A stretch of 64,000 nucleotides of DNA from Lachnospiraceae bacterium (GTDB lineage Bacteria > Bacillota > Clostridia > Lachnospirales > Lachnospiraceae): positions 1-64,000 of the forward strand of contig JAIKZO010000058.1 of assembly GCA_024682115.1 (NCBI GenBank). The letters are read 5' to 3'. The translations under genes were made by a program, and so were the position numbers. This document shows, piece by piece, positions 5,053 through 26,525 of this stretch (its first letter is position 1; every line of letters starts with the position of its first letter). The notes beneath the pieces were generated by a model that was not told the DNA's origin, made no database searches, and worked only from the letters and a program-made list of their open reading frames with translations.

Positions 5053-5070
5053 CGGAGGAATATCCTCAGG

Positions 5071-9324: not shown

Positions 9325-9343
9325 TTTTATGGAGGATTTACGG

Positions 9344-10102
9344 ATGGTAAAAGAACAGATGATCGTTATCGGTGAGAAAGAAACATTCATGGTGCGCGTG
9401 CTTACTCAAAAAGCACAGTCCGCTGATGTGGAATGCAAGTTTGTTCCCTGTACCGTCAATGATATCAATGCGAATATGGAAAACGTAACGCTGATCGCCC
9501 TGTATATGGAAGACGAGATGATACCCAATGAATCTGTACTTCATTTTATAACCGAAAAGCTTGAAGATAAGGGGATACAGATCATGATCATCGGCGATCA
9601 GAGAGATATCCCTAAAGTATGCGAACATATTCCGCCTGAACTTGTTTACAGGACATTTGCCAGACCCATAGATAACGCCGAATATGTTGAGGAGATTTCC
9701 GAATATTATAAGAAGATCGCTCTGGGAGAATTCAAGAAGAGTATCCTTGTTGTTGACGATGATCCGCAGTATCTGTCTATAGTCAGAGAGTGGCTCAAGG
9801 ATACATATAAGGTATCAATGGCTAATTCGGGACTCCAGGCGATAAAATGGCTCGGAAAGAATAGAGTCGATCTTATCTTACTTGACCACGAAATGCCAAT
9901 CACGGGCGGACCGCAGGTGCTTGAAATGTTAAGGAACGATGCGGATACCAGTTCTATCCCCGTGATCTTTCTTACCGGAAAAGGGGATAAGGAAAGCGTT
10001 ATGGCGGTTAAAGCGCTTCATCCCGAAGGGTATTTCTTAAAAACTATCAAACGCGAAGAATTACTTGAAAAGCTGAAAGAGTTTTTCCTTATTCACAGAT
10101 AA
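9344..10102 (+). CDS. Response regulator without output domain: degenerate N-terminal receiver-like region plus canonical REC
   Basis: SILVVDDDPQYLSIV...VDLILLDHEMPITGGPQVLEML...PVIFLTGKGDKESV; GGAGGA SD before ATG 9344; paralogous to 25740-26525. Confidence 0.88.
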   Translation: MVKEQMIVIGEKETFMVRVLTQKAQSADVECKFVPCTVNDINANMENVTLIALYMEDEMIPNESVLHFITEKLEDKGIQIMIIGDQRDIPKVCEHIPPELVYRTFARPIDNAEYVEEISEYYKKIALGEFKKSILVVDDDPQYLSIVREWLKDTYKVSMANSGLQAIKWLGKNRVDLILLDHEMPITGGPQVLEMLRNDADTSSIPVIFLTGKGDKESVMAVKALHPEGYFLKTIKREELLEKLKEFFLIHR

Positions 10103-10141
10103 GTCGGGACTTTAGCGTCGACGGCAAAATGAGGATTTAGG

Positions 10142-12526
10142 ATGTTTGATTTTATCAGAGATCATCAAATGAATATCATGCTGGCTCTATGTGCGGCCTG
10201 CGCGACAATGGCGATCATGCTTTTCTTCACCAGGTTCCTTCCGACTAAAAGGAAATGGATACTTATCCTGATGGAGTTGATTGCCACGTTTTTACTGTTC
10301 TTTGACCGCATGGCATATATCTATTCCGGAGATGTGAGCCGGAAAGCCTATATACTTGTCAGGGTTTCTAACTTTATGGTTTTTTTCCTGACCAGCGGTA
10401 TCGTCCTTGGCTTTAACATGTATCTTTGCGATCTCCTTTTGAGCGAAAAAGCAGTTGAAAAGCTTCCCGTGAGGCTTAAAACTGTTAGCATCATGTCTTT
10501 AATGGGCATGATGCTTGTCGTTATCTCGCAATTTACCGGCCTGATCTATTCGTTTGATGAACAGAATAAGTATTTCAGAGGACCGGGATTCCTATTATGC
10601 TACATTGTTCCCGTTATATGTCCTTTGATCCAGTTTACGGTCATCTGCCAATACAGGAAAAGTTTCAGCCGATTTATCAATATCGCTCATGCATTATATA
10701 TATTTGTTCCGATCATCGTCGGGATCATCCAGATCTTTACCTATGGTCTGTCCATAGTCAATATGTCGATGGTGCTGGTTTCGATCTCTCTTTATGTCTT
10801 TACCTATCTTGATATAAATGACGAGGTTGTCAGGATGCATAAGATCGAGATGGAAGGCCTTAAAGCGGAACGAAAGAGTATGAGGAGACTTTTTGATCAG
10901 ACAGCCACGGCTTTTGTTACGGCAGCCGAATATAAAGATCCTTTTTCAAAAGGATATTCAATGAGGGTGGCTGTTGTATCCAAAAGATTGGCAAAAGAGC
11001 TTGGCAAGAATGAAGAAGAATGTAACGAGATATATTATGCGGCCCTGCTTCACGATGTCGGTAAGGTTGCGCTTCCGGATGATGTTATCGGGAAGACCGA
11101 TTATCTTACTGCCGAAGAAGAAGAGATGATAAAACAAAGCCCTGCCATAAGTGAGGAGATATTATCCAATATAAACGAATATCCCTATCTTGGCGAGGCT
11201 GCCAGATACAGCAATGAAAGATATGACGGCACCGGATATCCTGAAGGACTTTCGGGCAAAGAAATCCCCGAGGCGGCAAGGATAATAGCCGTAGCCGAAG
11301 CATATGTTGAAATGACAAGAAAAACGAGGACAAGAGATCCGCTTCCTTCGGCATTTGTCAGAGAGGAACTTATCAAGGAATCCGAAGGAAAATATGATCC
11401 GGAGATCGCCGATATCATGGTCAAGATCATGGATTCATTAGAGAACGAGGGACTCGGACTCGATGATGTCACTGTGGAGACCCAGATCACCTGCGGAAAA
11501 TACAGGGATAATATCACGAAAGGAATAGAGATCACCAACAATGTTTCAAAGATAAGCTTTAATTATTCTCCTACAGATATTAAAGGAGACGGATTCAGTG
11601 CGCCTTCCATCATTCTGTTTGATTCATTTGACAGAAGAGTTCACAGCAACGAAAAGGCTATAAAGGCTTATAAATATCTGGAATACGGCGAACTTTGGTT
11701 TGACGGTCACAGCATTCGGACCGGTGCCAAGAATATGGAAGTCAGTGTTGACGAACATGTTGAAACTGATGAAAGACTCATCGATCGCATGAAGAACAAA
11801 AAACAGGCTTATTCCATCGTGGCTTCCAGGTATGAAGATCATATAAAACTTATATTGGAAAGCAGGGACCATACGGTTGAAGTTGTAGCCGCGCTTCCGT
11901 CGGTTTCGGTTTCGGCTTATATAGGTCTTACCGGTGAAAACTGCAATATTTCAGGTATAAGGATTGAACAGACCGGCGAAATGACACGTGAAGAGGATAT
12001 TCCGAGGATCGCGAGCTCGGATGTTTATACAGACAGACTTGAATCGGATATCCCGAATATTCAGATCGATCGTCCCCGTAATGTTTCGACGATCGGAACG
12101 CCGGTCAAAGACGGGATGATGCTCAGATTTCATTCCATGAGCCTTCCTTCTGCTACTCTTGTATGGCATTGCCCTTATGTTGTTCTGTTCAGTTCAGACG
12201 ACAATACGGTTGGCGGCAGTAACTACAGGGAATATGCGATGATAAAGATCAACGGCGAAAGCAATATAGAAAATGATTTTGCCGAAAACCGATTTATCAT
12301 GAAGAGAAAAGAATCGTTCCCGGGTTGGGAGGAATGGAAGAGGATCAACAGGGAAGGCATCGAATGCAAGGTTGTTTTCAGAAAAAAAGGAAACCGGTAT
12401 TCGATCATTACCGAGAATCTCGGCATATCTCTTGAGAACATAACAACTGTCAATGATGCTTCCGGTGAGATCTGTGCGGCATTGACCGGAGATCAGGTCG
12501 CGCTTACCGATATCAGGATATCGTAG
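10142..12526 (+). CDS. Polytopic membrane protein with degenerate HD-GYP domain and ~350-aa beta-rich C-terminal region
   Basis: LLHDVGKVALPDDVIGK...ARYSNERYDGTGYPEGLSGKEIP is HD-GYP-like but HH is replaced by SN; C-terminal region rich in predicted strands. Confidence 0.8.
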   Translation: MFDFIRDHQMNIMLALCAACATMAIMLFFTRFLPTKRKWILILMELIATFLLFFDRMAYIYSGDVSRKAYILVRVSNFMVFFLTSGIVLGFNMYLCDLLLSEKAVEKLPVRLKTVSIMSLMGMMLVVISQFTGLIYSFDEQNKYFRGPGFLLCYIVPVICPLIQFTVICQYRKSFSRFINIAHALYIFVPIIVGIIQIFTYGLSIVNMSMVLVSISLYVFTYLDINDEVVRMHKIEMEGLKAERKSMRRLFDQTATAFVTAAEYKDPFSKGYSMRVAVVSKRLAKELGKNEEECNEIYYAALLHDVGKVALPDDVIGKTDYLTAEEEEMIKQSPAISEEILSNINEYPYLGEAARYSNERYDGTGYPEGLSGKEIPEAARIIAVAEAYVEMTRKTRTRDPLPSAFVREELIKESEGKYDPEIADIMVKIMDSLENEGLGLDDVTVETQITCGKYRDNITKGIEITNNVSKISFNYSPTDIKGDGFSAPSIILFDSFDRRVHSNEKAIKAYKYLEYGELWFDGHSIRTGAKNMEVSVDEHVETDERLIDRMKNKKQAYSIVASRYEDHIKLILESRDHTVEVVAALPSVSVSAYIGLTGENCNISGIRIEQTGEMTREEDIPRIASSDVYTDRLESDIPNIQIDRPRNVSTIGTPVKDGMMLRFHSMSLPSATLVWHCPYVVLFSSDDNTVGGSNYREYAMIKINGESNIENDFAENRFIMKRKESFPGWEEWKRINREGIECKVVFRKKGNRYSIITENLGISLENITTVNDASGEICAALTGDQVALTDIRIS

Positions 12527-12544
12527 TATTAAGAATCTGTCCCT

Positions 12545-15385
12545 ATGGATGAGAACAGAAAAAACAAAATCGAAGATCTGAACGGATCTGAAAATTCCAA
12601 TATCAGACCGGCCATTTGGAAGATATTGCTGTATGTTCTTATTACAGCTTTTTTCGTATGCGTGGTTTTTATCTATTACAGGATGATCTATTTCGAGACC
12701 AGGGATAATATCATCAACGAAGGTAAGATAAACGCTATAGAATCATCAGATCTTATTGATAAACGTCTTCTGTCCAGTATGGATACCCTTATTCTTGCCG
12801 GACACACACTTGATATTTTGCTCGCAGAAGACAGATCCCAGGAAGAGATACTTGATTATCTGACCGAAGAAACCAGAGCTGTAGGGGAATCGCTCATAGT
12901 CAATACAACGGGGATCTACGGATATTTCAGGGGAGAATATATGGACGGATCCGGTTGGGATCCCGGCGAAGGCTATAATCCTACCGTAAGACCCTGGTAT
13001 ACGGAAGCCATGGCCGGACATGGCGAGATCGTTATAGTAGATCCATATGTGGATCTTGATACCGGAACCGTAATGATAGCCATAGTAAAGACGCTTTGCG
13101 ATAACGAAAGCGTTGTCGGAATAGATGTTTCGATGGATACACTTCAGGAAGTAGTGGAAGAACGTGTGGCCAGAAACGATGCTTTTGCGGAGTTCATTGT
13201 TAACAGCCATGGGACGATCATTTCTCATTCCGACATGCATCTTATCGGAACCACGATCAATGACGGAACAGATCCGCTTTCCGTATCTATCTGGAATAAG
13301 ATCAACACGGTCGAAGACGGATATTTCTATCTTGAATATGCAAATCGCGATTACATGATCTATGTTATGCCGTTAAGTACCGGCTGGACATGTGTATCCG
13401 TTATCGATGCAACGGATGATTTTGCCGCTCTTCGTATCCCGCTTGTGATAACCATTTTTATCTCAGTTATAATCATCGCTGTTTTCTTTATTCTGCTCGG
13501 GGCTTCGGAAAAGAAGAGCAGAAAGATCAGAGAATCTGCCGTAAGGACTGAACGCGCCATGGCCGCAAACGAGGCCAAGACTTCATTCCTTTCAAATATG
13601 TCTCATGAAATACGAACACCTATAAATGCGATCCTCGGGATGAACGAGATTATACTCAGAGAGTCTGATGATGATTCCATACTCGGCTATTCCGAGAATA
13701 TCAAGAGTGCGGGATCTTCATTACTTGGTATTATCAATGATGTCCTTGATTTTTCCAAGATAGAAGCCGGAAAGATAGAGATATTACCTGTGGATTATGA
13801 TCTGTCATCCGTAATAAACGATCTCGTGAACATGATCCAGGTTCGTGCGGAAAGCAAACATCTCGATCTTGAACTTTATTTTGACAAAGATATCCCCAGA
13901 TCTTTAAACGGAGATGAGGTCCGCATAAAACAGGTCATCACCAACATATTAACAAATGCCGTGAAATATACGGAAAAAGGAACCGTAAGGTTTTCAATGG
14001 GATATGAACACATTGAAAATGATGATGAGAACATTTTGCTTAAAGTATCCGTGAAAGACACGGGTATCGGTATAAAGCAGGAAGATATCCATAAACTGTT
14101 TTCTAAATTCGAGCGCATAGAAGAAAAACGTAACCGTAACATAGAGGGTACGGGACTCGGGATGAACATTACTCAGAGCCTGTTGTCATTGATGGGATCA
14201 TCTTTGGAAGTGACCAGTGCGTACGGGAAAGGTTCTGTTTTCGGTTTTTCACTTAAGCAGAAAGTCAATTCATGGGAACCGCTCGGAGATTATGAAGCAT
14301 CTTACCGGCAGCACATCGAAAAACAGGGCACATATAAACAGAAATTCACTGCCGAAAAGGCTCAGATACTTGTGGTTGATGATAATCCGATGAACCTTGT
14401 CGTATTCACCAGCCTCTTAAAGAGAACAAAGATAAAGATCGATACAGCTGATAACGGAGATAACGGTATCGTTCTTACACGGAACAAAAAATATGATCTG
14501 ATCTTCCTTGATCATATGATGCCTGAAAAAGACGGTATCGAAACGCTTCGTGAAATACGAAAAGAAAACGATAATCCTAACATTTCGACTCCTTATGTCT
14601 GCCTAACCGCAAATGCGATCTCCGGTGCAAGAGAACAGTATATCGAAGCAGGCTTTGATGATTATCTGACAAAGCCCGTAGATTCTGACAAACTTGAGCA
14701 AATGCTCCTTCAGTATATTCCGGAAGATAAGATCGAAAAGATCAAAGAGGCGACCGGAGAAGAAAAGAAAAAATTTACCGAAGAAGATATCCCCGAAGAA
14801 CTCATAGCGATCGACGGAGATCTTATAGATGTAAAAGCGGGTCTTAACAATAACGGAAGCCCGGAACTGTATAACAATGTCTTAAAAATGTTCTTTAATT
14901 CGATAAACCATACTCATAAGATGTTATCGGATCTTTTCGGATCGGATTCCTATGAGGAATATACGATAAAAGTACATGCACTTAAGAGTTCCGCAAGGAT
15001 CGTAGGTGCCGCCGCTTTCGGAGAAGAAGCCCAAAAACTTGAGGATGCCGGAAAAGCAGGTGATTTCGGATATATCCGTGAGCATAACCGTGAATTCCTT
15101 GATCATTATCTTGAGTTCGGGGAACTTCTTGCAGGATTGTTCGACTGCGGTAAAGAGCAGGCTGAAAGACCTGTTGCGGATCCCGAACTATTGAGTAATG
15201 TTTATGAAGAAATAAGATCCGCGGCGGATGATATGGATTGTGACCGCCTTGAAAACATATTTAAGGAAATGGATGAATACAGCATCCCGAAAGAAGAAGA
15301 GGAACTTTATACCGGGTTGAAGGAAGCGACCTGGAATTATGATTATGATGGGATACTTTCCCTTCTGAATAACAATGATAAATGA
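12545..15385 (+). CDS. Hybrid histidine kinase: Cache-type extracytoplasmic sensor, HisKA, HATPase, REC, Hpt, C-terminal tail
   Basis: TM-flanked region with VRPWYTEAMAGHGEIVIVDPYVDLDTGTVMIAIVKTL (dCache-like); NMSHEIRTPINAILGMNEI; DLIFLDHMMPEKDG; VHALKSSARIVGA. Confidence 0.92.
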   Translation: MDENRKNKIEDLNGSENSNIRPAIWKILLYVLITAFFVCVVFIYYRMIYFETRDNIINEGKINAIESSDLIDKRLLSSMDTLILAGHTLDILLAEDRSQEEILDYLTEETRAVGESLIVNTTGIYGYFRGEYMDGSGWDPGEGYNPTVRPWYTEAMAGHGEIVIVDPYVDLDTGTVMIAIVKTLCDNESVVGIDVSMDTLQEVVEERVARNDAFAEFIVNSHGTIISHSDMHLIGTTINDGTDPLSVSIWNKINTVEDGYFYLEYANRDYMIYVMPLSTGWTCVSVIDATDDFAALRIPLVITIFISVIIIAVFFILLGASEKKSRKIRESAVRTERAMAANEAKTSFLSNMSHEIRTPINAILGMNEIILRESDDDSILGYSENIKSAGSSLLGIINDVLDFSKIEAGKIEILPVDYDLSSVINDLVNMIQVRAESKHLDLELYFDKDIPRSLNGDEVRIKQVITNILTNAVKYTEKGTVRFSMGYEHIENDDENILLKVSVKDTGIGIKQEDIHKLFSKFERIEEKRNRNIEGTGLGMNITQSLLSLMGSSLEVTSAYGKGSVFGFSLKQKVNSWEPLGDYEASYRQHIEKQGTYKQKFTAEKAQILVVDDNPMNLVVFTSLLKRTKIKIDTADNGDNGIVLTRNKKYDLIFLDHMMPEKDGIETLREIRKENDNPNISTPYVCLTANAISGAREQYIEAGFDDYLTKPVDSDKLEQMLLQYIPEDKIEKIKEATGEEKKKFTEEDIPEELIAIDGDLIDVKAGLNNNGSPELYNNVLKMFFNSINHTHKMLSDLFGSDSYEEYTIKVHALKSSARIVGAAAFGEEAQKLEDAGKAGDFGYIREHNREFLDHYLEFGELLAGLFDCGKEQAERPVADPELLSNVYEEIRSAADDMDCDRLENIFKEMDEYSIPKEEEELYTGLKEATWNYDYDGILSLLNNNDK

Positions 15386-15426
15386 TCGGGAATATAGCCT
15401 GATATCTGATCACCGGAGAAGCAGAA

Positions 15427-18400
15427 ATGGAAAAAAGCATTGTTTATACCAATGACAATTGTATCGGATGTAATAAGTGCATCAAAGTCTGCAGTGCGAT
15501 AGGCGCCTGTATCTCAAAGGAAGAAAACGGAAAGGCCAGGATCGATGTTGACGGAAACAAATGCGTAGGCTGCGGAAGCTGTATCGATGTCTGTGTTCAC
15601 GGCGCAAGGGAATACCTTGATGACACCGAAAGATTTTTTGATGATCTTAAAAAAGGTGAAAACATTTCCCTGCTGCTGGCGCCTGCATTTAAGGCTAATT
15701 ATCCCGATGACTATGAAAGTGTTCTCGGAGGATTGAAACAGCTTGGTATTAACAGGATCATCAGTGTTTCGTTCGGTGCGGACATTACTACATGGGGATA
15801 TCTTAACTATATAGAAAAGTACGATTTTCTTGGAGGAATATCGCAACCCTGTCCGGCACTTGTTTCTTACATAGAAAGATATCTTCCCGAGCTTATCCCG
15901 AAGCTTTTTCCCGTACAGAGCCCTTTGATGTGCGCTGCGGTATATGCGAGAAAAGAAATGGGGATAACGGATAAATTCGCATTTATCAGCCCCTGTATCG
16001 CAAAAAAACTTGAGATCGAAGATCCGCATAACTCCGGTCTGGTTCAATACAATGTAACTTTTGAACATCTTATGAAGTATGTGAAGGAACATGATATAAA
16101 AGGACCGTCCGTAAACAGCGAGATAGAATACGGTCTCGGGTCTTTTTATCCGACTCCGGGCGGCTTGGCCGAGAACGTTAAATGGTTCCTTGGAGACCAT
16201 GTTTATATTCGCCAGATAGAAGGCGAACGACATCTTTATGAATGGCTGCACCAGAACAAAGACAGGATCAAAGAAGACAAGACGCCGTTCCTTTTTATCG
16301 ATGCTCTTAACTGCGAAAAGGGATGTATATGCGGAACCGCTGTAAATCCCGAAAAATCTAAGACCGATGATGCTCTTTATGCCCTGCTCAATATCAGGGA
16401 AAAGTCAAAAAAAGAGACAAGCGGAGATGCCTGGTCAAGGCCCGATCCTCCCGAAGAGCGATTGAAGAACTATAATCTCCAGTTCAGGGATCTTGATCTT
16501 AACGATTATTTAAGGGGTTATACTGACAGATCCTCCGAATGCAGATATGACTTTCCGCAGGGTAAAGATCTGGAAGAAATATATGTCAGCATGAACAAGC
16601 TTGATGAAGCATCAAGAAAGATAGACTGTACATGCTGCGGTTATGAGAGCTGTTACCAGATGGCAACGGCTATTTACAACGGCTTCAACCATAAGGAAAA
16701 CTGTATCCATTACGAAAAAGCGATGGTACAGGAACTCGAAGTTGAAAAGGCCATAGCCGAGGAGGCAACAAAGGCTAAAAGCTCATTCCTTGCCAACATG
16801 TCTCATGAGATCAGAACACCCATAAATGCTGTTCTCGGAATGAATGAAATGGTACTTCGCGAATGCGAGGATCCCAATATAGTCGCATATTCGGAGAGCA
16901 TAAGAAGTGCCGGGAATACGCTTCTTGGTCTTGTTAACAATATTCTCGATTTCTCTAAGATCGAAGCAGGCAAGATGGAGATCACTCCGGTGGATTATGA
17001 TCTTTCATCCGTTGTCAATGACCTTGTAAACATGATACAGAACAGAGCCGATGAAAAGGGACTCCTGATCGCCTTGGATATCGATCCGAAGATACCGAAA
17101 GTACTTCACGGCGATGAGATAAGGATAAAGCAGATCATTACAAATATTCTTACAAATGCCGTTAAATATACCGAAAAGGGCACGATAACCTTCAGACTCG
17201 GATACGAAGCCATCCCTTCGGATAATGACCATATCGTACTTAAGGTAATGGTTGAGGATACCGGTATCGGGATCAAAGAGGAAGATATCTCAAGACTCTT
17301 TGAACAGTTTGACAGGATAGAGGAAAAACGTAACCGAAACATCGAAGGAACCGGCCTTGGGATGAATATTACCCTGAAGCTTTTGGAGCTTATGGGTTCG
17401 ACCCTGAATGTCAAGAGTGTTTACGGAGAAGGTTCGAAGTTCTACTTTGACCTTGAACAGGAAGTCATCAAATGGGAAGAACTCGGGGATTATGAGTCTT
17501 CATACAGACATCTGGTCGGTGAAAGGAAGGAATATAAAGAAAAGTTTACAGCCCCCGAAGCGCAGGTTCTTGTTATCGATGATAATCCGATGAACCTGAT
17601 GGTATTCAAGAGCCTGTTAAAACAAACACGGGTATGTGTTGATACCGCAAACGACGGTTTTGAAGGTCTTACGCTTGCGTATGACAAGAAGTATGACATC
17701 ATCTTCTTTGACCATATGATGCCGGAAAAAGACGGTATTGAGACGCTTCATGAAATGAGAGCACAGGAAAAAAATCCCAATCTTGAAACACCTGCGGTAT
17801 GCCTTACTGCAAATGCGATCTCCGGAGCCAGAGAGTTTTATATAGAAGCCGGATTTGATGATTATCTTACGAAACCCATAGATTCGGAAAAACTCGAAGA
17901 TATGCTCCTTCATTATCTGCCTGAAGACAAGATCGTTATGGTAAGTGCTGATCAGATTTCATCCGATGATAATGAAGAAGCATTAAGTGACGAACTTAAA
18001 GAACTCGACAAATACGAAGGAATAGATGTTAAGACAGGTATCCTTAACAGCGGAAGTGTCGATGCTTATATGCCGCTCCTTAAGATCTTTTATGAATCGA
18101 TGGATGAAAAAGGTAATGAGATAGAAAACTATTATAAAGAAAAAGATATAAAGAATTATACGATAAAGGTTCATGCACTTAAGAGCTCAGCGAGACTCAT
18201 AGGTGCCGTTGAATTCGGAGAGATAGCACAGGAACTCGAAAACGCCGGAAAGAGTGAAGATATCGGCTTTATTGACGAAAACCATGCTACCTTTATGGAG
18301 GAATTCCATAAGTTCAAAGAGCCGCTTTCGAAACTGTTTGATAAGGGTGGCAATAACGAAGACAAACCTCTTGCCGATCCGATCCTTATGGCTGAGGTGT

Positions 18401-18576
18401 TTGAAGAAATAAGGTCTGCGGCAGAAGACATGGATTGCGACAGGCTTGAGAGCGTATTTGAAGAAATGGCCGATTTTCGTATTCCGGACAGTGATGTCGA
18501 TCTTTACGAGAAGCTTAAGAGCGCGGCAGGAATGTTTGATTATGATTCGATTACGGAACTGCTGAAAGACAAATAG
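15427..18576 (+). CDS. [FeFe]-hydrogenase-like sensor fused to hybrid histidine kinase (2x[4Fe-4S], H-cluster-like domain, Fe-S domain, HisKA, HATPase, REC, Hpt, tail)
   Basis: CIGCNKCIKVCSAIGAC and CVGCGSCIDVC ferredoxin motifs; ISQPCPA, SPCIAKK and LNCEKGCICG match L1/L2/L3 H-cluster regions; CTCCGYESCYQMATAIYNGFNHKENC; NMSHEIRTPINAVLGMNEM; DIIFFDHMMPEKDG. Confidence 0.92.
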   Translation: MEKSIVYTNDNCIGCNKCIKVCSAIGACISKEENGKARIDVDGNKCVGCGSCIDVCVHGAREYLDDTERFFDDLKKGENISLLLAPAFKANYPDDYESVLGGLKQLGINRIISVSFGADITTWGYLNYIEKYDFLGGISQPCPALVSYIERYLPELIPKLFPVQSPLMCAAVYARKEMGITDKFAFISPCIAKKLEIEDPHNSGLVQYNVTFEHLMKYVKEHDIKGPSVNSEIEYGLGSFYPTPGGLAENVKWFLGDHVYIRQIEGERHLYEWLHQNKDRIKEDKTPFLFIDALNCEKGCICGTAVNPEKSKTDDALYALLNIREKSKKETSGDAWSRPDPPEERLKNYNLQFRDLDLNDYLRGYTDRSSECRYDFPQGKDLEEIYVSMNKLDEASRKIDCTCCGYESCYQMATAIYNGFNHKENCIHYEKAMVQELEVEKAIAEEATKAKSSFLANMSHEIRTPINAVLGMNEMVLRECEDPNIVAYSESIRSAGNTLLGLVNNILDFSKIEAGKMEITPVDYDLSSVVNDLVNMIQNRADEKGLLIALDIDPKIPKVLHGDEIRIKQIITNILTNAVKYTEKGTITFRLGYEAIPSDNDHIVLKVMVEDTGIGIKEEDISRLFEQFDRIEEKRNRNIEGTGLGMNITLKLLELMGSTLNVKSVYGEGSKFYFDLEQEVIKWEELGDYESSYRHLVGERKEYKEKFTAPEAQVLVIDDNPMNLMVFKSLLKQTRVCVDTANDGFEGLTLAYDKKYDIIFFDHMMPEKDGIETLHEMRAQEKNPNLETPAVCLTANAISGAREFYIEAGFDDYLTKPIDSEKLEDMLLHYLPEDKIVMVSADQISSDDNEEALSDELKELDKYEGIDVKTGILNSGSVDAYMPLLKIFYESMDEKGNEIENYYKEKDIKNYTIKVHALKSSARLIGAVEFGEIAQELENAGKSEDIGFIDENHATFMEEFHKFKEPLSKLFDKGGNNEDKPLADPILMAEVFEEIRSAAEDMDCDRLESVFEEMADFRIPDSDVDLYEKLKSAAGMFDYDSITELLKDK

Positions 18577-18597
18577 TTTAACGGGAAGGAACTATCA

Positions 18598-20649
18598 ATG
18601 AGGAGAAATAAGATCCATCGTTTTATCATTGCGATGATAACGATAGCAGCAATAGGACTCATAATTGACAGTGCGTCGGAAAACTGGGAGTTTTGGGTTA
18701 CTCCGCTTATGATCATCGGTACTATAGGTATGTGGGTCATCCATTTCGGTCAGTTTCTGAACGAACAAAGCAGAGAAATGATATACCTGTTCTTCGGGAT
18801 GTTTCTTGCGTTCTTTCATGGTGTACACGAAACGAGTTTTTTTGATGTGTGCTCAGTCATGGCTTTAATGCTGGTTCTGTATTCGCTATACGACAGATTA
18901 TATGCTTTGAATCTTATACTGATCGAGTTTTTCTTTGTAATGATCATGGCGTTCTTTTTCGTTATCAGACCCGAGAACTTTTTGCTTGACATGATAAATG
19001 TATCGAGACTCGTGCTTCAGGTTGTGATCGTTCTTTCCATCTATATGATCTGCAGAATGAGTGTTATCACACGTCTTGAACAGATCGATCTTCTTAAGCA
19101 GCAAAACGCTGATATGGAAGCCACCCAAAACGATATGGAGGACTTCCTTTCCAATATCTCTCATGAACTCAGGACACCCGTAAATGTTGTAAACGGCATG
19201 TCTGAACTCATGATAAAAAGAAACGCCGGATCCGAGGCATATTCCATAAAGAATGCCGGGATAAGGATCGCATATCAGATAGAAGACGTTCAGGATTATA
19301 CGGAATGTAAAAGAAATAAGGTGATGCTCGAAGAGGAAGATTATATGAGTACATCCCTTATTAATGATGTTGTCACCGGATATAAGCTTATTGAATATAA
19401 CAAAGCTCTGGAACTTATTGTTGATATCGATCCCGAAGTCCCTACCATGATGCGCGGTGATGTTAAAAAGATCCATAAGATCTTCAGGCATCTTCTCGAA
19501 AACGCGGTCAAATTTACCAAACGCGGAGGAATCCTGGTAAGAATGTATTCGGAAGAGACCGATTACGGGATCAATCTTTGTATTGAAATGACCGATACCG
19601 GAATAGGAATGGATCAAAGAGCCATAGAGGCTATCTCCGAAGGAATGTATCAGGTCAACAAAAAACGAAATCGCAGCACCGGAGGTATCGGACTCGGACT
19701 TTTCATCGTATACGGATTTGCCCATCGGATGGGAGGTTTCGTTAAGATAGAAAGCAAGAAAGGGAACGGTACAAGAGTGCGTGTTACGATCCCTCAGAAA
19801 GTCATAAAACCCGAACCCTGTCTGGTGTTATCCAATGACTATGAAGGGGATATTCTTTTCCATGTCAGATCGGATAAATACAAGGTTCCGAAAGTGCGCG
19901 AATTTTATCGCACCATGGCAGGTAATCTGGCAACAAAGCTTCATGTCCGGCTTTACTCGGCCGAGACGATTAAAGAGATCGAAAGACTCGAAGAAAAACT
20001 GAACGTTAAGTATATCTTTATGGGTCAGGAAGAATATGAAGATAATCCCGAGTATTTCGATGAATTGAGTAAAGGGGATATCGTTGTATCCGTATCCGCA
20101 TCATCCGGGTTTAAGACCAATCCTGGAAGCAGGGTCATGATCATGCCGAAACCTCTTTATGCATATCCGGTCTTCAAGATCCTGAATGAAGGGCTTAACG
20201 CTGATAATTTTGACATTTCCGGTGAAGCTGTAAGACCGGTATTTAAAGATGTCAAAGCGCTTGTTGTCGATGATGAACCTATGAATCTCGTAGTGGCGAC
20301 AGGTTTGTTCAAAGATTATGAAATGATCATTGATACGGCCGGAAGCGGAAAAGAATCAATCAAAAAATTTAAAAATGATAATTATGATGTTGTTTTCATG
20401 GATCATATGATGCCGGAAATGGACGGAGTGGAAGCCATGAAGCATATAAAAGAGGAAGCCGGGGAGCATAACAGGAGTGTTATTGTCATTGCACTTACTG
20501 CCAATGCCGTATCAGGGGCTAAAGAGATGTTCATTAAAGAAGGTTTTGACGGATTCATCGCAAAACCTATAAATACGGCCGACTTCGAAAGAGTAATGAT
20601 GAAACTTCTTCCGGAACTTTCTTCCGTAAAGGGAGGTGAAACGGCATGA
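18598..20649 (+). CDS. Membrane hybrid histidine kinase with degenerate receiver-like segment and C-terminal REC, no Hpt
   Basis: NISHELRTPVNVVNGMSEL; STGGIGLGLFIV; ALVVDDEPMNLVVATG...DVVFMDHMMPEMDG. Confidence 0.9.
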   Translation: MRRNKIHRFIIAMITIAAIGLIIDSASENWEFWVTPLMIIGTIGMWVIHFGQFLNEQSREMIYLFFGMFLAFFHGVHETSFFDVCSVMALMLVLYSLYDRLYALNLILIEFFFVMIMAFFFVIRPENFLLDMINVSRLVLQVVIVLSIYMICRMSVITRLEQIDLLKQQNADMEATQNDMEDFLSNISHELRTPVNVVNGMSELMIKRNAGSEAYSIKNAGIRIAYQIEDVQDYTECKRNKVMLEEEDYMSTSLINDVVTGYKLIEYNKALELIVDIDPEVPTMMRGDVKKIHKIFRHLLENAVKFTKRGGILVRMYSEETDYGINLCIEMTDTGIGMDQRAIEAISEGMYQVNKKRNRSTGGIGLGLFIVYGFAHRMGGFVKIESKKGNGTRVRVTIPQKVIKPEPCLVLSNDYEGDILFHVRSDKYKVPKVREFYRTMAGNLATKLHVRLYSAETIKEIERLEEKLNVKYIFMGQEEYEDNPEYFDELSKGDIVVSVSASSGFKTNPGSRVMIMPKPLYAYPVFKILNEGLNADNFDISGEAVRPVFKDVKALVVDDEPMNLVVATGLFKDYEMIIDTAGSGKESIKKFKNDNYDVVFMDHMMPEMDGVEAMKHIKEEAGEHNRSVIVIALTANAVSGAKEMFIKEGFDGFIAKPINTADFERVMMKLLPELSSVKGGETA

Positions 20650-23600
20650 TAAGAAAAGTGATAAAAGATATCTATGCTGCTATAAAAGATCCCGGACGGG
20701 AGATAAAGGAACGTGTTTTTCTGCACATTTCTTTTATAGCCGTTATTTCTGCGATAATAGCACTTATCGGAGATATCGTTTTCGGAGAAAACATATTTGA
20801 GATAATCACCCTGGCCGGCGTGATAGTTTTTATTCCGGTTATTACCGTAATATGTATGTATAAGAATAAAATGTCTCTGGCGGTCAATATCCTTTCGCTC
20901 GGTTTTGTCGCGATAGTTCTTCCCGCGCTTTTTTTCTTCGGAGGCGGTGTTGAAGGCGGCGGTATTATTTGGGTTATATTTATATTCGTATACGTAGGGT
21001 TGTTACTGTCTGGAAAACTCAAAGCTGTTGTTCTTTTCCTACTGTTGGCTTTATCCGCTGCTTTTTATCTGATCGGATATTATCATCCGGAGCTTGTTCA
21101 TACTCATTCCAGGGAAGTTTTTTATATTGATTCATTCATATCCCTCATTCTGGTGGCGGTTGTCTGCCTTACGATGGCATGGTTCCAGAATCAGCTTTTT
21201 ATAGAAGAAAATCTTCGTGCAAAGAAAGAAGCTGAAAGAGCAGAGGATCTTACCCGGGCTCAGAACAGATTTTTCTCCAGCATGAGCCATGAGATTAGAA
21301 CTCCGATCAACTCGATCCTTGGATTGAACGAGCTCATATTGCGCGACCAGACGGCATCCGAAGAGATCGTTAAAGATGCTTCCGGTATCCAGGGGGCAGG
21401 TAAAATGCTCCTTGCACTCATTAATGATATTCTTGATTTTTCAAAGATGGAAGCAGGAAGCATGGATATCGTACCTGTTGATTATAATGTCGGGAACATG
21501 CTTTCAGAGATCGTTAACATGATCTGGTTAAGGGCGCATGATAAGGGGCTGGGATTTAATGTCAGTATCGATCCCGAAGTTCCGTCTGTCCTGTATGGTG
21601 ATGAAGTCAGGATAAAGCAGGTTATAATAAACCTTCTTAACAATGCGGTCAAATATACACAGGAAGGTTCTGTTTCTCTTCACATCGAAAGTGATGACAA
21701 TGACGGAGACTCGGTCATTTTACGTATTTCGATCTCCGATACGGGGATGGGTATCAAAAAAGAAGCTATTCCGTTCCTTTTTGATGCGTTTAAGAGAGTC
21801 GATGAAGAAAAGAACATGTATATAGAAGGAACCGGACTGGGGCTCAGTATCGTTAAGCAGATAGTTGAATTGATGAACGGTACGGTTTCAGTTAACAGTG
21901 TATACGGCGAAGGATCGATGTTTACCGTTGAACTGAAACAGCAGATCACGAATAATACCGGCATCGGCGAACTCAATATCCATAATCAGCAAAGCATAAA
22001 AAGAAACGTGTATACGAGCAGCTTTACGGCACCTGAAGCAAGTATACTCATTGTTGATGATAACGAGATGAACCTCGAGGTGGAATGCAAACTCCTTTCA
22101 GAGACCGAAATGTTCATTGATAAAGCTTTAAGCGGTAAAGAAGCGCTGGAAAAGACATTAAAAAGACATTACGATACCATTCTTATGGATCATCTTATGC
22201 CCGAGATGGACGGTATAGAATGCCTTAATCTTATCAGAGATCAGGAAGGCGGATTAAACAGGACTTCACCCGTGGTTGTGCTGACGGCTAATGCAGGCAG
22301 TGATAACAGAGAGCTTTATAACCGCGCTGGATTTGACGGATATCTTGTTAAGCCTGTTTCGGGAGAAGCTCTTGAAGCCACACTGATAAAGCATATAGCT
22401 AACGAAAAAATGATCATCAAAGATGCCAAGATGTCCGGAGACCGTGAAGATATCAATACGTTAGTCGGATATTCGGGAAAGGTTCCGGTCATCATAACTT
22501 CTTCTAGCATGTGTGACCTGCCTGATTCCATGATCAAACGTATCAATCTTCCCGTTATTCCGTTCCTTATCCGTACGGAAGAAGGAATATTCAAAGACGG
22601 GGAACAGATGGGCGCGGATGAACTTATAAGGTATATGAATCAGGGAAAGAAGACGATCTCTTCTCCGCCGGATGAATCAGATTACACCGAGTTTTTCGCG
22701 GATGTGCTCAGGAAAGCTCATCACGTCATTCATATCGCGCTTACAACGAGTTTAAGTGAAGACCTTAAGAGAGCGACAGAGGCAGCCAAATCTTTTGAAA
22801 ATGTTACTGTCATAAATTCCGGATGCATTTCTTCGGCTACAGGTATCATGGTCCTTATAGCTCATAAACTTGCCCAGCAGAATATGCCTGTTGAAGAGAT
22901 CACAAAGGAACTAGAGCATGTAAGAGAAAGACTTCAATGCAGCTTTGTCATTGACACAACGGAATACATGGCAAGGAGGGGTCTTATAAGTCAGGGTATT
23001 CACCGGCTTGCAAGAAATCTTAATCTTCATCCATGCCTTAAATTCAAAAACGACAGATTGGGTATAGGAGGAATCTGGACCGGAAAGACCAGGCGTGCTT
23101 ATAAGAAATATATCAATAAGGCTTTCCCTGTCGATATCATTCCGGATCCGGACATTGTATTTATCACATATGCTGATGTGCCTATAGATACACTCCTGTG
23201 GGTAAAGGAAGAGATCAGTAAGATCGCATATTTTGAGCACGTTATTTTCAAACAGGCTTCAGCCGCGATCACCTCAAACTGCGGCCCCGGAACTCTGGGT
23301 ATTTTGTATTTTGTAAAATCAAATAAATCATATAATCTTGGGTCTTATGTAGATGATCATTCTCAGGATATGCTATTAAGCAATAACGACGATCACGGAT
23401 ATGATGAAGATGATGAAACTGAAAGTGCTCCGATCACTTTCTATGATGTTACTTCGCCCGTAGAAACAGTCAATGCCAATGGAACGGAAGATGGTCTTTG
23501 GTACAGAGGAATAGAAGGCATAGACCCAGATGAAGCAATAAAGAACAGCGGATCCGAAGATGCGTTTAAGACCGTTCTTAAGATATTCTATGATTCGATT

Positions 23601-24095
23601 CCGGTAAAGTCCTCCGAACTTGAGAAGTTCTTTTCATCGGAGGATTGGAGTAACTATACTATCAAGATCCATGCGCTTAAGAGCTCGGCCAGGCTGATCG
23701 GTGCTTCAGAACTTGCGGATAAAGCCCAGCTGCTCGAAGATGCCGGGAAAGCATCGGATAAGGATTATATAGGCGAAAATCACGATCCTTTTATGAAAGA
23801 CTATCTGAAGTTTAAAGATATTCTCAGAGAGATATTTGAAGATGACGGAGGAAAAACCGATGATATTCGAGGGGATAATACAAAACCGGTAGCTGACGAC
23901 TCTCTTATGAAGGGAGTGTATGAAGGGCTTAAGGAAGCGGCCGAAGCGATGGATTGTGATGCGATAGATGAGATATTCGGTGAACTGAAGGATTATTCCA
24001 TTCCTGATAAAGAGAAGGCAAAATATGATTTGATCATTGAAAAAGCCGGTAACTTTGATTATGAAGGGATACTTGAAGTTTTGGCTCGGGATTAG
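20646..24095 (+). CDS. Membrane hybrid histidine kinase: HisKA, HATPase, REC, DegV domain, Hpt, C-terminal tail
   Basis: SMSHEIRTPINSILGLNEL; DTILMDHLMPEMDG; VIITSSSMCDLPDSMIKRINLPVIPFLIRTEEGIFKDGEQM...KTISSPP...IALTTSLSEDLKRATEAA...TTEYMARRGLISQG...NCGPGTLGILYF (DegV); IHALKSSARLIGA (Hpt); ATGA overlap with the preceding gene. Confidence 0.92.
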   Translation: MIRKVIKDIYAAIKDPGREIKERVFLHISFIAVISAIIALIGDIVFGENIFEIITLAGVIVFIPVITVICMYKNKMSLAVNILSLGFVAIVLPALFFFGGGVEGGGIIWVIFIFVYVGLLLSGKLKAVVLFLLLALSAAFYLIGYYHPELVHTHSREVFYIDSFISLILVAVVCLTMAWFQNQLFIEENLRAKKEAERAEDLTRAQNRFFSSMSHEIRTPINSILGLNELILRDQTASEEIVKDASGIQGAGKMLLALINDILDFSKMEAGSMDIVPVDYNVGNMLSEIVNMIWLRAHDKGLGFNVSIDPEVPSVLYGDEVRIKQVIINLLNNAVKYTQEGSVSLHIESDDNDGDSVILRISISDTGMGIKKEAIPFLFDAFKRVDEEKNMYIEGTGLGLSIVKQIVELMNGTVSVNSVYGEGSMFTVELKQQITNNTGIGELNIHNQQSIKRNVYTSSFTAPEASILIVDDNEMNLEVECKLLSETEMFIDKALSGKEALEKTLKRHYDTILMDHLMPEMDGIECLNLIRDQEGGLNRTSPVVVLTANAGSDNRELYNRAGFDGYLVKPVSGEALEATLIKHIANEKMIIKDAKMSGDREDINTLVGYSGKVPVIITSSSMCDLPDSMIKRINLPVIPFLIRTEEGIFKDGEQMGADELIRYMNQGKKTISSPPDESDYTEFFADVLRKAHHVIHIALTTSLSEDLKRATEAAKSFENVTVINSGCISSATGIMVLIAHKLAQQNMPVEEITKELEHVRERLQCSFVIDTTEYMARRGLISQGIHRLARNLNLHPCLKFKNDRLGIGGIWTGKTRRAYKKYINKAFPVDIIPDPDIVFITYADVPIDTLLWVKEEISKIAYFEHVIFKQASAAITSNCGPGTLGILYFVKSNKSYNLGSYVDDHSQDMLLSNNDDHGYDEDDETESAPITFYDVTSPVETVNANGTEDGLWYRGIEGIDPDEAIKNSGSEDAFKTVLKIFYDSIPVKSSELEKFFSSEDWSNYTIKIHALKSSARLIGASELADKAQLLEDAGKASDKDYIGENHDPFMKDYLKFKDILREIFEDDGGKTDDIRGDNTKPVADDSLMKGVYEGLKEAAEAMDCDAIDEIFGELKDYSIPDKEKAKYDLIIEKAGNFDYEGILEVLARD

Positions 24096-24122: not shown

Positions 24123-25646
24123 TTGGAAACGATTGTTAGGATAAATGATGCGGTAAACGGATTTGCATGGGGTACTTTCGGTCTTGTTCTCCTTTTGGGA
24201 ACAGGGCTAATATGTACAGCGATAACCGGATTTTTTCAGATAACGCATATAAGACACTGGATCAGACGAACTTTCGGAACGATAAGGAACGAGGGGAGGA
24301 TCATTAACGATGCCGGTGCGTTATCTCAATACAGAGCCTTTTGTACTGCTCTGGGCGCGACGATAGGAACCGGTAATATTGCAGGAGTTTCCACCGCGAT
24401 CTGTGTAGGCGGACCGGGGGCTGTTTTCTGGATGTGGATAGCCGCTTTCTTCGGTATGATGGTCAAATATTCGGAAAACGTTCTGGGTATCTATTACAGG
24501 AGAAGAAATACCGAAGGCGCATGGTCCGGAGGCCCAATGTATTATCTGGAAGACGGACTCGGCTCCTTAAAACACTGCAGGAAGATCGGTAAAGTTCTCG
24601 GTGTTCTGTTCTGTATTTTTACCGTCCTTGCTTCTTTTGGGATAGGAAATATGGGACAGATAAACAAGATCACGATCAACATCCAATCCACCTTTTTTTC
24701 GGATGTTGACAAAGGAATGATGCTAGGTTTCTCCCGGGTAAACATATCGATCGGTCTGTTTCTGATGATCGCCGCAGCTGTCATCATACTCGGAGGATTC
24801 AGAAGGCTTGCGGCCGTATCCGAAAAGATCATTCCGTTTATGTGCGTGATCTATATCCTGGGATGCCTTGTGATCATAGTTTTGCATATAAAGATGCTGC
24901 CTTCCGTTTTCGCTTCCATATTCAGGTTCGCGCTCGGCCCCGATGCGGTTAAAGGCGGTGTGGCAGGTACCGCGATACAACTTGCATTTAATACGATCAA
25001 GAACGGATGCAAAAGAGGTGTTTTTTCAAATGAAGCAGGGCTCGGTTCTTCCGTAATGGTTCACAGTAACAGTTGCGCCAGAGAACCGGTAAAACAGGGA
25101 ATGTGGGGAATGGCGGAGGTATTCCTTGACACCATCTTTATCTGCACGATGACTGCTGTCGTTGTTTTAAGTTCCGGAGCTATCGACCTTGGTACAGGTA
25201 TTGTCGCGGAAGGAACAAATGATGCGACCTTGGTTGCCAAGGCCTTTGGAAATTCGCTCGGCAGACCCGGTGAATGGTTTGTGGTATTGGCGATCACACT
25301 GTTTGCTTTCACGACGGTTTTGGGATGGTCGTATTACGGTGCAAAGGTTACTGAGTATCTCTTTGGAGTCAGGATCGCAAAGCTCTATAGATTTGTATTT
25401 ATCATACTGGTCGTTTTTGGCGCGGTCATGGAATCAAATCTCGCCTGGGACATCTCGGATACTTTTAACGGTCTTATGATGATTCCTAACCTTATCGGCG
25501 TGATAACATTGACACCGCTTATCATAAAACTGACAAAGAACTATACAGACAGAAGAATAAGAAAAATGGATATTCCGGCTATGCTTTCATACGATCCTGA
25601 TATCGAACGGGATGCGCTGAAAGCTGTTCAGAAGGGCGCAGATTAA
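24123..25646 (+). CDS. Sodium:alanine symporter (AGCS) family protein, TTG start
   Basis: GLICTAITGFFQITHIRHWIRRTFG...GTGNIAGVSTAICVGGPGAVFWMWIAAFFGMMVKYSE...FSNEAGLGSSVMVHSNS. Confidence 0.95.
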   Translation: METIVRINDAVNGFAWGTFGLVLLLGTGLICTAITGFFQITHIRHWIRRTFGTIRNEGRIINDAGALSQYRAFCTALGATIGTGNIAGVSTAICVGGPGAVFWMWIAAFFGMMVKYSENVLGIYYRRRNTEGAWSGGPMYYLEDGLGSLKHCRKIGKVLGVLFCIFTVLASFGIGNMGQINKITINIQSTFFSDVDKGMMLGFSRVNISIGLFLMIAAAVIILGGFRRLAAVSEKIIPFMCVIYILGCLVIIVLHIKMLPSVFASIFRFALGPDAVKGGVAGTAIQLAFNTIKNGCKRGVFSNEAGLGSSVMVHSNSCAREPVKQGMWGMAEVFLDTIFICTMTAVVVLSSGAIDLGTGIVAEGTNDATLVAKAFGNSLGRPGEWFVVLAITLFAFTTVLGWSYYGAKVTEYLFGVRIAKLYRFVFIILVVFGAVMESNLAWDISDTFNGLMMIPNLIGVITLTPLIIKLTKNYTDRRIRKMDIPAMLSYDPDIERDALKAVQKGAD

Positions 25647-25739: not shown

Positions 25740-26525
25740 TTGACAATGGGTACGATATCTAAAAACGTAGTTATAGTTTTATATCAATACAGCGTGGTGG
25801 TCAAAGGCATTGAAAACAAGCTTAAGGACCTTGGTTACCATGTTGATATTGTTACCGAGAAATATGATATTATCAGAGATTTTACATCGACTACGCCTTT
25901 GTTCATTGTTTATCTTCCCGGAGATATCAGAGGAGACATACATAAGGTCAAGGTTTTATCCAATGTGTGCGGAATGGTTGTTGAAGGCGGCCGAAATCTG
26001 ATAATCATAGGCGATTATCAGCAAAAAGACGATATAAACGAAGCCGTTCCTCAAAGTCGTGAATCAAGATGGGTAGACAGACCTGTTGACCTTGAAAAAT
26101 TAGGAAATCTTGTTGATGAATTTTATGTTACCGAAGAAGAGGTTTCGAATTCGAAAAAGAGGATACTTATCGTTGATGACGATCCTTCTTATGCCAAAAT
26201 GGTCAGGGAATGGATCAAGGAAGTATACAGGGTAGATATTGTGACTGCAGGTATGCAGGCGATAAGTTTTCTCTTGAAGGTGAAGGAATCGGAGAAGGTA
26301 AATCTGATCCTGCTGGATTATGAGATGCCTGTTGTAGACGGACCCCAGGTACTTCAGATGTTAAGGCAGGATCCTGCGACCGCTAATATTCCGGTTATAT
26401 TCCTTACGGGTAATGGAACCAAGGAAGCCGTTGCAAGGGTAATGGAACTTAAACCCGACGGATATATACTTAAGTCCACGACAAGAGAGAACCTTATGGG
26501 TTATCTGTACAGTAAGCTTAAGTGA
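25740..26525 (+). CDS. Response regulator without output domain, degenerate receiver-like N-terminus plus REC
   Basis: RILIVDDDPSYAKMVREWIKEVY...VNLILLDYEMPVVDGPQVLQML; paralog of 9344-10102. Confidence 0.88.
   Translation: MTMGTISKNVVIVLYQYSVVVKGIENKLKDLGYHVDIVTEKYDIIRDFTSTTPLFIVYLPGDIRGDIHKVKVLSNVCGMVVEGGRNLIIIGDYQQKDDINEAVPQSRESRWVDRPVDLEKLGNLVDEFYVTEEEVSNSKKRILIVDDDPSYAKMVREWIKEVYRVDIVTAGMQAISFLLKVKESEKVNLILLDYEMPVVDGPQVLQMLRQDPATANIPVIFLTGNGTKEAVARVMELKPDGYILKSTTRENLMGYLYSKLK

Follow-up and report, generated by a model that had tools for sequence, protein, structure and literature searches.

A hybrid histidine kinase with a DegV/FakB-type domain in Lachnospiraceae, part of a paired one-Hpt phosphorelay

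FakB-type fatty-acid carriers are known as substrates of FakA. In the window (the whole stretch of Lachnospiraceae DNA analysed here, 64,000 nucleotides), a domain of this type appeared in the middle of a hybrid histidine kinase, between the receiver (REC) and the Hpt. This raises the question of what a lipid carrier is doing in a phosphorelay, and whether it acts there as a carrier, as a gate between the two flanking relay domains, as a scaffold or as a receptor.

Fold and layout of the DegV hybrid kinase

The coordinates of the kinase, its key residues, its partner and the genes downstream are collected in Table 1. The original prediction had located a complete DegV-like domain between REC and Hpt, at nucleotides 22484 to 23330. 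The Pfam match to DegV lies within this interval, and the profile match, the DegV/EDD fold and the PDB matches agreed on the identity of the domain. Pfam DegV (PF02645) matched with an E value of 2.7e-37 and 129 bits against a cutoff of 27, and NCBIfam TIGR00762 (DegV) with 141 bits against a cutoff of 99.7. The nearest solved structures by sequence were DegV/FakB proteins (2dt8, E = 1.9e-24). An AlphaFold2 model of the domain, made from an alignment of 41 related domains, had a pLDDT of 94.7. When this model was compared with the PDB by Foldseek, the top 45 matches were all DegV/FakB proteins, led by 2dt8 (E = 1.4e-25, TM 0.82/0.88) and 1pzx, after which the matches dropped to dihydroxyacetone kinases. 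The whole fold is common to the DegV domain and the solved members, among them S. aureus FakB1 and FakB2 and Thermus 2dt8, with TM-scores by query length of 0.71 to 0.85. FakB proteins are free, whereas the DegV domain here is part of a kinase.

A chance similarity or a degenerate DegV domain was ruled out by the Pfam match, the high pLDDT and the conserved key residues, and the domain order recurs in the best 80 loci from GTDB.

In the full-length AlphaFold model (pTM 0.38), membrane helices were predicted at residues 20-45, 50-72, 76-98, 105-120, 123-146 and 156-233, the last of which continues into the HisKA helix. No Pfam family matched the N-terminal membrane region. Two linkers of this model are of low confidence, residues 594-611 between REC and DegV and residues 909-949 between DegV and Hpt (pLDDT below 50), and the latter linker is predicted to be disordered. 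The phosphorelay residues of the window kinase are complete, comprising the HisKA His, the HATPase boxes, the REC Asp and the Hpt His.

Table 1. Features of the DegV kinase locus, with positions in the window
Feature	Position	Strand	Evidence and remarks
DegV hybrid histidine kinase	20646..24095	+	1149 aa; membrane helices-HisKA-HATPase-REC-DegV-Hpt-C-terminal helical tail
N-terminal membrane region, residues 1-190	20646..21215	+	About 6 hydrophobic helices in the full-length AlphaFold model
HisKA, residues 205-271, phospho-accepting His215	21258..21458	+	Pfam; His215 invariant in 58 relatives
HATPase_c, residues 318-433	21597..21944	+	Pfam; N and G boxes invariant
REC, residues 467-579	22044..22382	+	Pfam; Asp471, Asp472, Asp515, Thr547 and Lys569 invariant
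DegV/FakB-type domain, residues 617-889	22494..23312	+	Pfam PF02645, AlphaFold2, Foldseek
Ser672, equivalent of FakB2 T61 / FakB1 T62	22659..22661	+	Ser in 57/58 close relatives, Thr in 1/58; Ser or Thr in 129/137 kinase-linked DegVs
Ser704, equivalent of FakB2 S93 / FakB1 S95	22755..22757	+	Ser in 58/58 close relatives and 117/137 kinase-linked DegVs
Thr812, at the position of FakB2 R202 / FakB1 R205 (FakA/membrane-binding Arg)	23079..23081	+	Arg lost
Asn878, at the position of FakB2 H266 / FakB1 H270	23277..23279	+	Asn in 58/58 close relatives and 132/137 kinase-linked DegVs
Hpt, residues 977-1037, His1009, after a long variable linker	23574..23756	+	Pfam; His1009 invariant
C-terminal helical tail	23877..24092	+	Resembles tails of other window hybrid kinases; conserved in relatives; helical in the model
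Partner hybrid kinase	18598..20649	+	Pfam; 683 aa; membrane region-HisKA-HATPase-extra stretch-REC, without Hpt
AGCS sodium:alanine/glycine symporter	24123..25646	+	Pfam, E = 6.2e-128; conserved downstream neighbour in 45/58 loci of the window clade
Response regulator with C-terminal REC, without known output domain	25740..26525	+	Pfam; in 38/58 loci of the window clade

Distribution, pairing and history of the family

A search of 200 genomes of the same family gave about 40 proteins that align with the window protein from the kinase through DegV. In 392 genomes of the same order, DegV domains in long open frames scored about 300 bits or more and stand-alone DegV proteins 255 bits at most, except for a DegV-only ORF (locus L141) at 287 bits; outside the family, the fused form was found in only two genomes of one other family. 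A class-wide sample added one genus from a further family, and a phylum-wide sample gave no additional fused DegV kinases. The GTDB genomes were scanned with a pattern built from a 14-row alignment, the 41-row alignment being too diverse, and at least 486 relatives were found. The best 80 of these are from Lachnospiraceae, Butyrivibrio or close kin, with many from rumen samples, and include Butyrivibrio sp. VCD2006, XPD2002 and NC2007. The DegV-Hpt order was present in nearly all of these 80 loci, and the exceptions were mostly cut by contig ends. The architecture is widespread and not unique. The expectation that no signalling system of this kind had been described held, in that no description of a DegV-kinase fusion was found in the open-access literature; the architecture may already stand, uncommented, in domain databases. 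The DegV-kinase family is genuine, conserved and part of a paired phosphorelay, and it is apparently undescribed.

A unique fusion or an assembly error was ruled out by the recurrence in genomes of the family and in GTDB. Two DegV kinases from another family (L139 and L140, in genomes G434 and G482) are very close to those of Lachnospiraceae, which may reflect a recent transfer or mis-binned contigs.

The partner gene in the window shares 4 bases with the DegV kinase gene. In 116 of the 118 loci with a whole DegV-kinase ORF, the gene directly before it, on the same strand and mostly overlapping it, encodes a second hybrid kinase or a fragment of one; of the two exceptions, one lies on a contig that begins too close and the other is split by an ORF break. 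The distribution of the Hpt over the pair follows one rule. A DegV kinase with an Hpt (about 1150 aa) is accompanied by a partner without one (about 690 aa), and a DegV kinase that ends after DegV (about 890 aa) by a partner that carries the Hpt (about 820 to 980 aa). The Hpt was on the DegV kinase in 81 loci, on the partner in 36 (33 plus 3 from another family) and on both in none, counts that include a few loci entered twice under two names, such as L011 and L069. Neither kinase has an Hpt in two loci, L081, where the frame stops just past DegV near a contig end, and L116, which is rearranged. The Hpts of the partners at L028 and L032 are highly divergent and lie on a very long branch of the Hpt tree. 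These counts indicate maintenance of the rule and not its independent repetition, because there is one switch on the tree. The original prediction had described a relay within a single protein and missed the kinase directly upstream; DegV is better read as a module of a two-kinase, one-Hpt phosphorelay than as an insert gating transfer from REC to Hpt. The one-Hpt rule is a clear instance, open to experiment, of a relay module that switches from one kinase of a pair to the other.

The partner kinase contains an extra stretch between HATPase and REC (residues about 410-540) that has no Pfam match and recurs in other partners; it is perhaps a degenerate receiver. At L116 (4180-7503, plus strand), the C-terminus of the DegV kinase lacks an Hpt and has in its place a stretch similar to the first half of the response regulator encoded next to it, and the upstream kinase is truncated as well, pointing to a rearrangement or an assembly error.

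In the DegV-domain tree, with stand-alone DegV proteins as the outgroup, all kinase-linked DegV domains fell into one group (support 100). The HK-REC-DegV fusion arose once, mainly in Lachnospiraceae. The form without Hpt is the older and wider one in the outgroup-rooted tree, and the Hpt was gained later in one clade. In a tree built from the HK-REC-DegV core, the DegV kinases with an Hpt formed a single clade (support 99) with L116 as a loss inside it; in the shorter DegV-only tree, L014 was placed just outside this clade, among poorly supported forks. In the Hpt tree, which is based on few columns, the Hpt of the DegV kinases grouped with the Hpts of other hybrid kinases (100/98), apart from that of the partner. 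The trees thus indicate that the fusion of DegV came first; later, the DegV kinase gained an Hpt from a different kinase lineage and the partner lost its own. Three HK-REC-Hpt kinases of the window (5071, 12545 and 15427) are of the same HK-REC-Hpt plan and have Hpts that group with that of the DegV kinase; they differ in their inputs, which are propeller repeats, dCache and a [FeFe]-hydrogenase domain, and have no DegV.

Two simpler histories were rejected. A mere move of the Hpt from the partner was ruled out by the Hpt tree, which places its origin in another hybrid-kinase lineage, and the insertion of DegV into an HK-REC-Hpt protein was ruled out by the outgroup tree.

Ligand site and proposed role of the DegV domain

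In S. aureus FakB1, the fatty-acid carboxylate is surrounded by a network of Thr62, Ser95, Ser171 and His270; FakA catalysis depends on Arg173, and binding to FakA and to the membrane on Arg205 (PMC8892158; PMC9136124). The two arginines have been described as completely conserved in FakBs (PMC8892158). The FakB1 residues were putatively equated with FakB2 T61, S93, H266, R170 and R202 by motif and numbering, and 137 kinase-linked DegV domains, 5 of them duplicate entries, were compared at these positions.

Two hydroxyl positions of the carboxylate network are common to the FakB family and the DegV kinase. At the first of them, the landmark KTISSPP of the original prediction keeps the hydroxyl, but the Thr of FakB is changed to Ser. 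This landmark and NCGPGT both need careful reading; at the latter, the carboxylate His of FakB is replaced by Asn. This His was replaced in 136 of the 137 kinase-linked domains and kept in all 14 stand-alone DegV proteins. A further switch from Lys to His separates kinase-linked from stand-alone DegVs, and the new residue is strictly conserved. Among the 58 close relatives, the head-group positions belong to the best conserved ones in the domain (Ser672, 98%; Ser704, 100%; Asn878, 100%). The positions of the FakA contacts drift, the commonest residue being Leu (62%) at R170/173 and Met (28%) at R202/205. Across the kinase-linked domains, the docking Arg (R202/205) is mostly replaced by Met, Leu, Ile, Phe or Val; Arg was found in 1 of 137, with 1 more ambiguous, as opposed to 13 of 14 stand-alone proteins. 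The catalytic Arg (R170/173) is Leu780 in the window kinase; it was retained in 26 of 137 kinase-linked domains and lost in 111, and the stand-alone relatives keep both the catalytic and the docking Arg.

From these substitutions, we read the candidate ligand site as kept but retuned, and the FakA and membrane docking surface as lost. The conserved head-group site makes an acyl ligand plausible, as the original prediction proposed, although its view of DegV as an insert that gates REC-to-Hpt transfer was not supported. The ligand is possibly one without a free carboxylate, because the carboxylate His of FakB is Asn in nearly the whole family. The same genome encodes FakA and ordinary stand-alone DegV proteins, so the kinase DegV domain is not needed for the FakA pathway. 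Judged by sequence conservation, the domain is probably a FakB carrier turned sensor. A FakB-type domain fixed in a histidine kinase, with conserved head-group residues and lost FakA-contact residues, suggests a lipid receptor made from a lipid carrier.

In the reading that we prefer, with a probability of about 0.5 for the whole model, a FakB-type acyl-binding module is the cytosolic receptor of a paired one-Hpt relay. The module would have been converted from a carrier to a cytosolic receptor. Its fusion to a membrane hybrid histidine kinase, behind REC, occurred a single time, and the counterpart of this kinase is the product of the adjoining upstream gene. The two would share a single Hpt, located on the partner ancestrally and on the DegV kinase in the window clade. 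The fold, the single origin, the pairing, the one-Hpt rule, the residue pattern and the c-di-GMP neighbours are results of the analysis; we infer the ligand, the allostery and the phosphate route of the model as follows. A fatty acid or related acyl lipid from the membrane may bind DegV, and its binding may alter the conformation or the dimer packing of the REC-DegV half. This would shift the kinase/phosphatase balance of the pair, and phosphate would reach a response regulator by way of the shared Hpt. In the partner-Hpt form, the acceptor would usually be a REC-HD-GYP or REC-GGDEF protein and the likely output the level of c-di-GMP; in the window clade, the acceptor is perhaps the REC protein encoded at 25740-26525. 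The DegV-kinase system is probably an undescribed, putative lipid-responsive switch.

The original prediction deduced a gate from the position of DegV between REC and Hpt, with a bound acyl chain directly controlling the transfer, and the domain order fits such a gate in the window protein and in about 80 close relatives. Most of the diversity of the family, however, has no Hpt after DegV and carries it on the partner. Where an Hpt does follow DegV, it was added last, on a linker predicted to be disordered. Among relatives, the spacer between REC and DegV is constant (26 to 34 aa) and that between DegV and Hpt varies (35 to 109 aa), which argues against a REC-Hpt gate and in favour of DegV belonging, as a module, to the kinase-REC half. 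A gate is therefore quite unlikely. Even less credible, and very improbable in our judgement, is a DegV that is still a fatty-acid carrier for FakA and merely tethered to the kinase for its membrane location. The presence of FakA and stand-alone DegV proteins in the genome would suit such a carrier, but only one or two members retain the FakA/membrane Arg and only a minority the catalytic one, while both are kept by the stand-alone relatives.

The residue pattern also bears on two readings in which DegV does belong to the pair. The domain may be its sensor for a hydrophobic ligand other than a free fatty acid, such as a neutral or amide acyl lipid; this would account for the family-wide changes of His to Asn, Thr to Ser and Lys to His relative to the stand-alone DegVs, with the new residues strictly conserved. 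The gene neighbours (DUF6976 and the AGCS symporter) suggest no candidate ligand, however, and we consider this reading rather unlikely. Still less likely is a DegV without ligand that serves as a scaffold to dock the two kinases or the receiver. A new protein interface would be expected to have a hydrophobic residue in place of the Arg central to the FakB membrane/FakA docking patch, as is the case here, yet the head-group residues, which rank with the best conserved of the domain, would be of no use to a pure scaffold.

Gene neighbours and known fatty-acid sensing systems

In the partner-Hpt form, REC was found in 22, HD in 15 and GGDEF in 10 of the 27 genes immediately upstream of the partner, and those 15 HD domains show HD-GYP-type motifs in the alignment. 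The preceding gene usually encodes a REC-HD-GYP or REC-GGDEF protein, which suggests c-di-GMP as the output. Among the genes downstream in this group, no common family was found. In the window clade, the REC protein two genes downstream of the DegV kinase is a candidate phosphate acceptor, and the output is less certain than in the partner-Hpt form; a link of the AGCS symporter to the kinase pair is unproven. A DUF6976 gene lies near the DegV kinase in 27 of 58 loci.

At L141 (5765-6631, plus strand), a separate ORF of 288 aa encodes a DegV of the kinase type; it overlaps an upstream HK-REC-Hpt gene and is followed by a REC-GGDEF gene. In the DegV-domain tree, this DegV fell inside the kinase-linked clade, and the arrangement indicates that the DegV module stays with the partner after its own kinase part was lost. 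At L142 (6228-8018, plus strand; 596 aa), DegV is likewise fused to another module, here an N-terminal part that by eye looks DAK2-like (a part of FakA); unlike the DegV kinase, this fusion has no signalling domains.

In RpfC/RpfG, the signal is the fatty acid DSF; it activates a hybrid kinase, which in turn drives a REC-HD-GYP phosphodiesterase (PMC5391125; PMC4504480). The system of Xanthomonas resembles the DegV system in its multi-pass membrane hybrid kinase, REC and Hpt, REC-HD-GYP regulator and, as proposed here, a ligand of the fatty-acid type (PMC4504480; PMC5391125). An Hpt-bearing hybrid kinase beside a REC-HD-GYP regulator occurs in many partner-Hpt loci and not in the window locus. 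In RpfC, DSF is bound by an N-terminal segment of 22 residues and no DegV has been described, whereas the candidate ligand domain here follows REC; RpfC/RpfG also differs from the DegV system in that two kinases share one Hpt in the latter. The likeness is one of plan, and the DegV system is not claimed as a member of the DSF systems. PA1396 of Pseudomonas aeruginosa is likewise an RpfC-like sensor of a fatty-acid signal that has no Hpt of its own and relays via the Hpt of another protein (PMC4504480). It differs from the DegV system in relying on an orphan Hpt protein and in having a DNA-binding regulator, and no DegV has been described for it.

A wider reading is tentative, with the odds somewhat against it. 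In this reading, a two-kinase, one-Hpt relay acquired its receptor by a single capture of a fatty-acid carrier and controls c-di-GMP in Lachnospiraceae of rumen and gut; it would be a Gram-positive counterpart, arisen independently, to the fatty-acid sensing of RpfC/RpfG. If the model is true, Butyrivibrio and its relatives could respond to dietary or membrane fatty acids. B. fibrisolvens has been described as a main biohydrogenator of unsaturated fatty acids that is in turn inhibited by them (PMC2836310). As rumen Butyrivibrio are among the bearers of the DegV kinase, a fatty-acid sensor would, with that description, be of ecological and agricultural interest.

The DegV kinase adjoins a dense signalling island (2893-20649 of the window) that contains four more hybrid kinases, with propeller, dCache and hydrogenase-like inputs and the partner, together with HD-domain proteins at 2893-5052 and 10142-12526. 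The hybrid kinase at 15427-18576 has an N-terminal [FeFe]-hydrogenase large-subunit domain (Fe_hyd_lg_C, E = 3.5e-28) with ferredoxin and FeS domains, followed by HisKA-HATPase-REC-Hpt, and is possibly a redox or hydrogen sensor. Similar proteins were found in several related loci.
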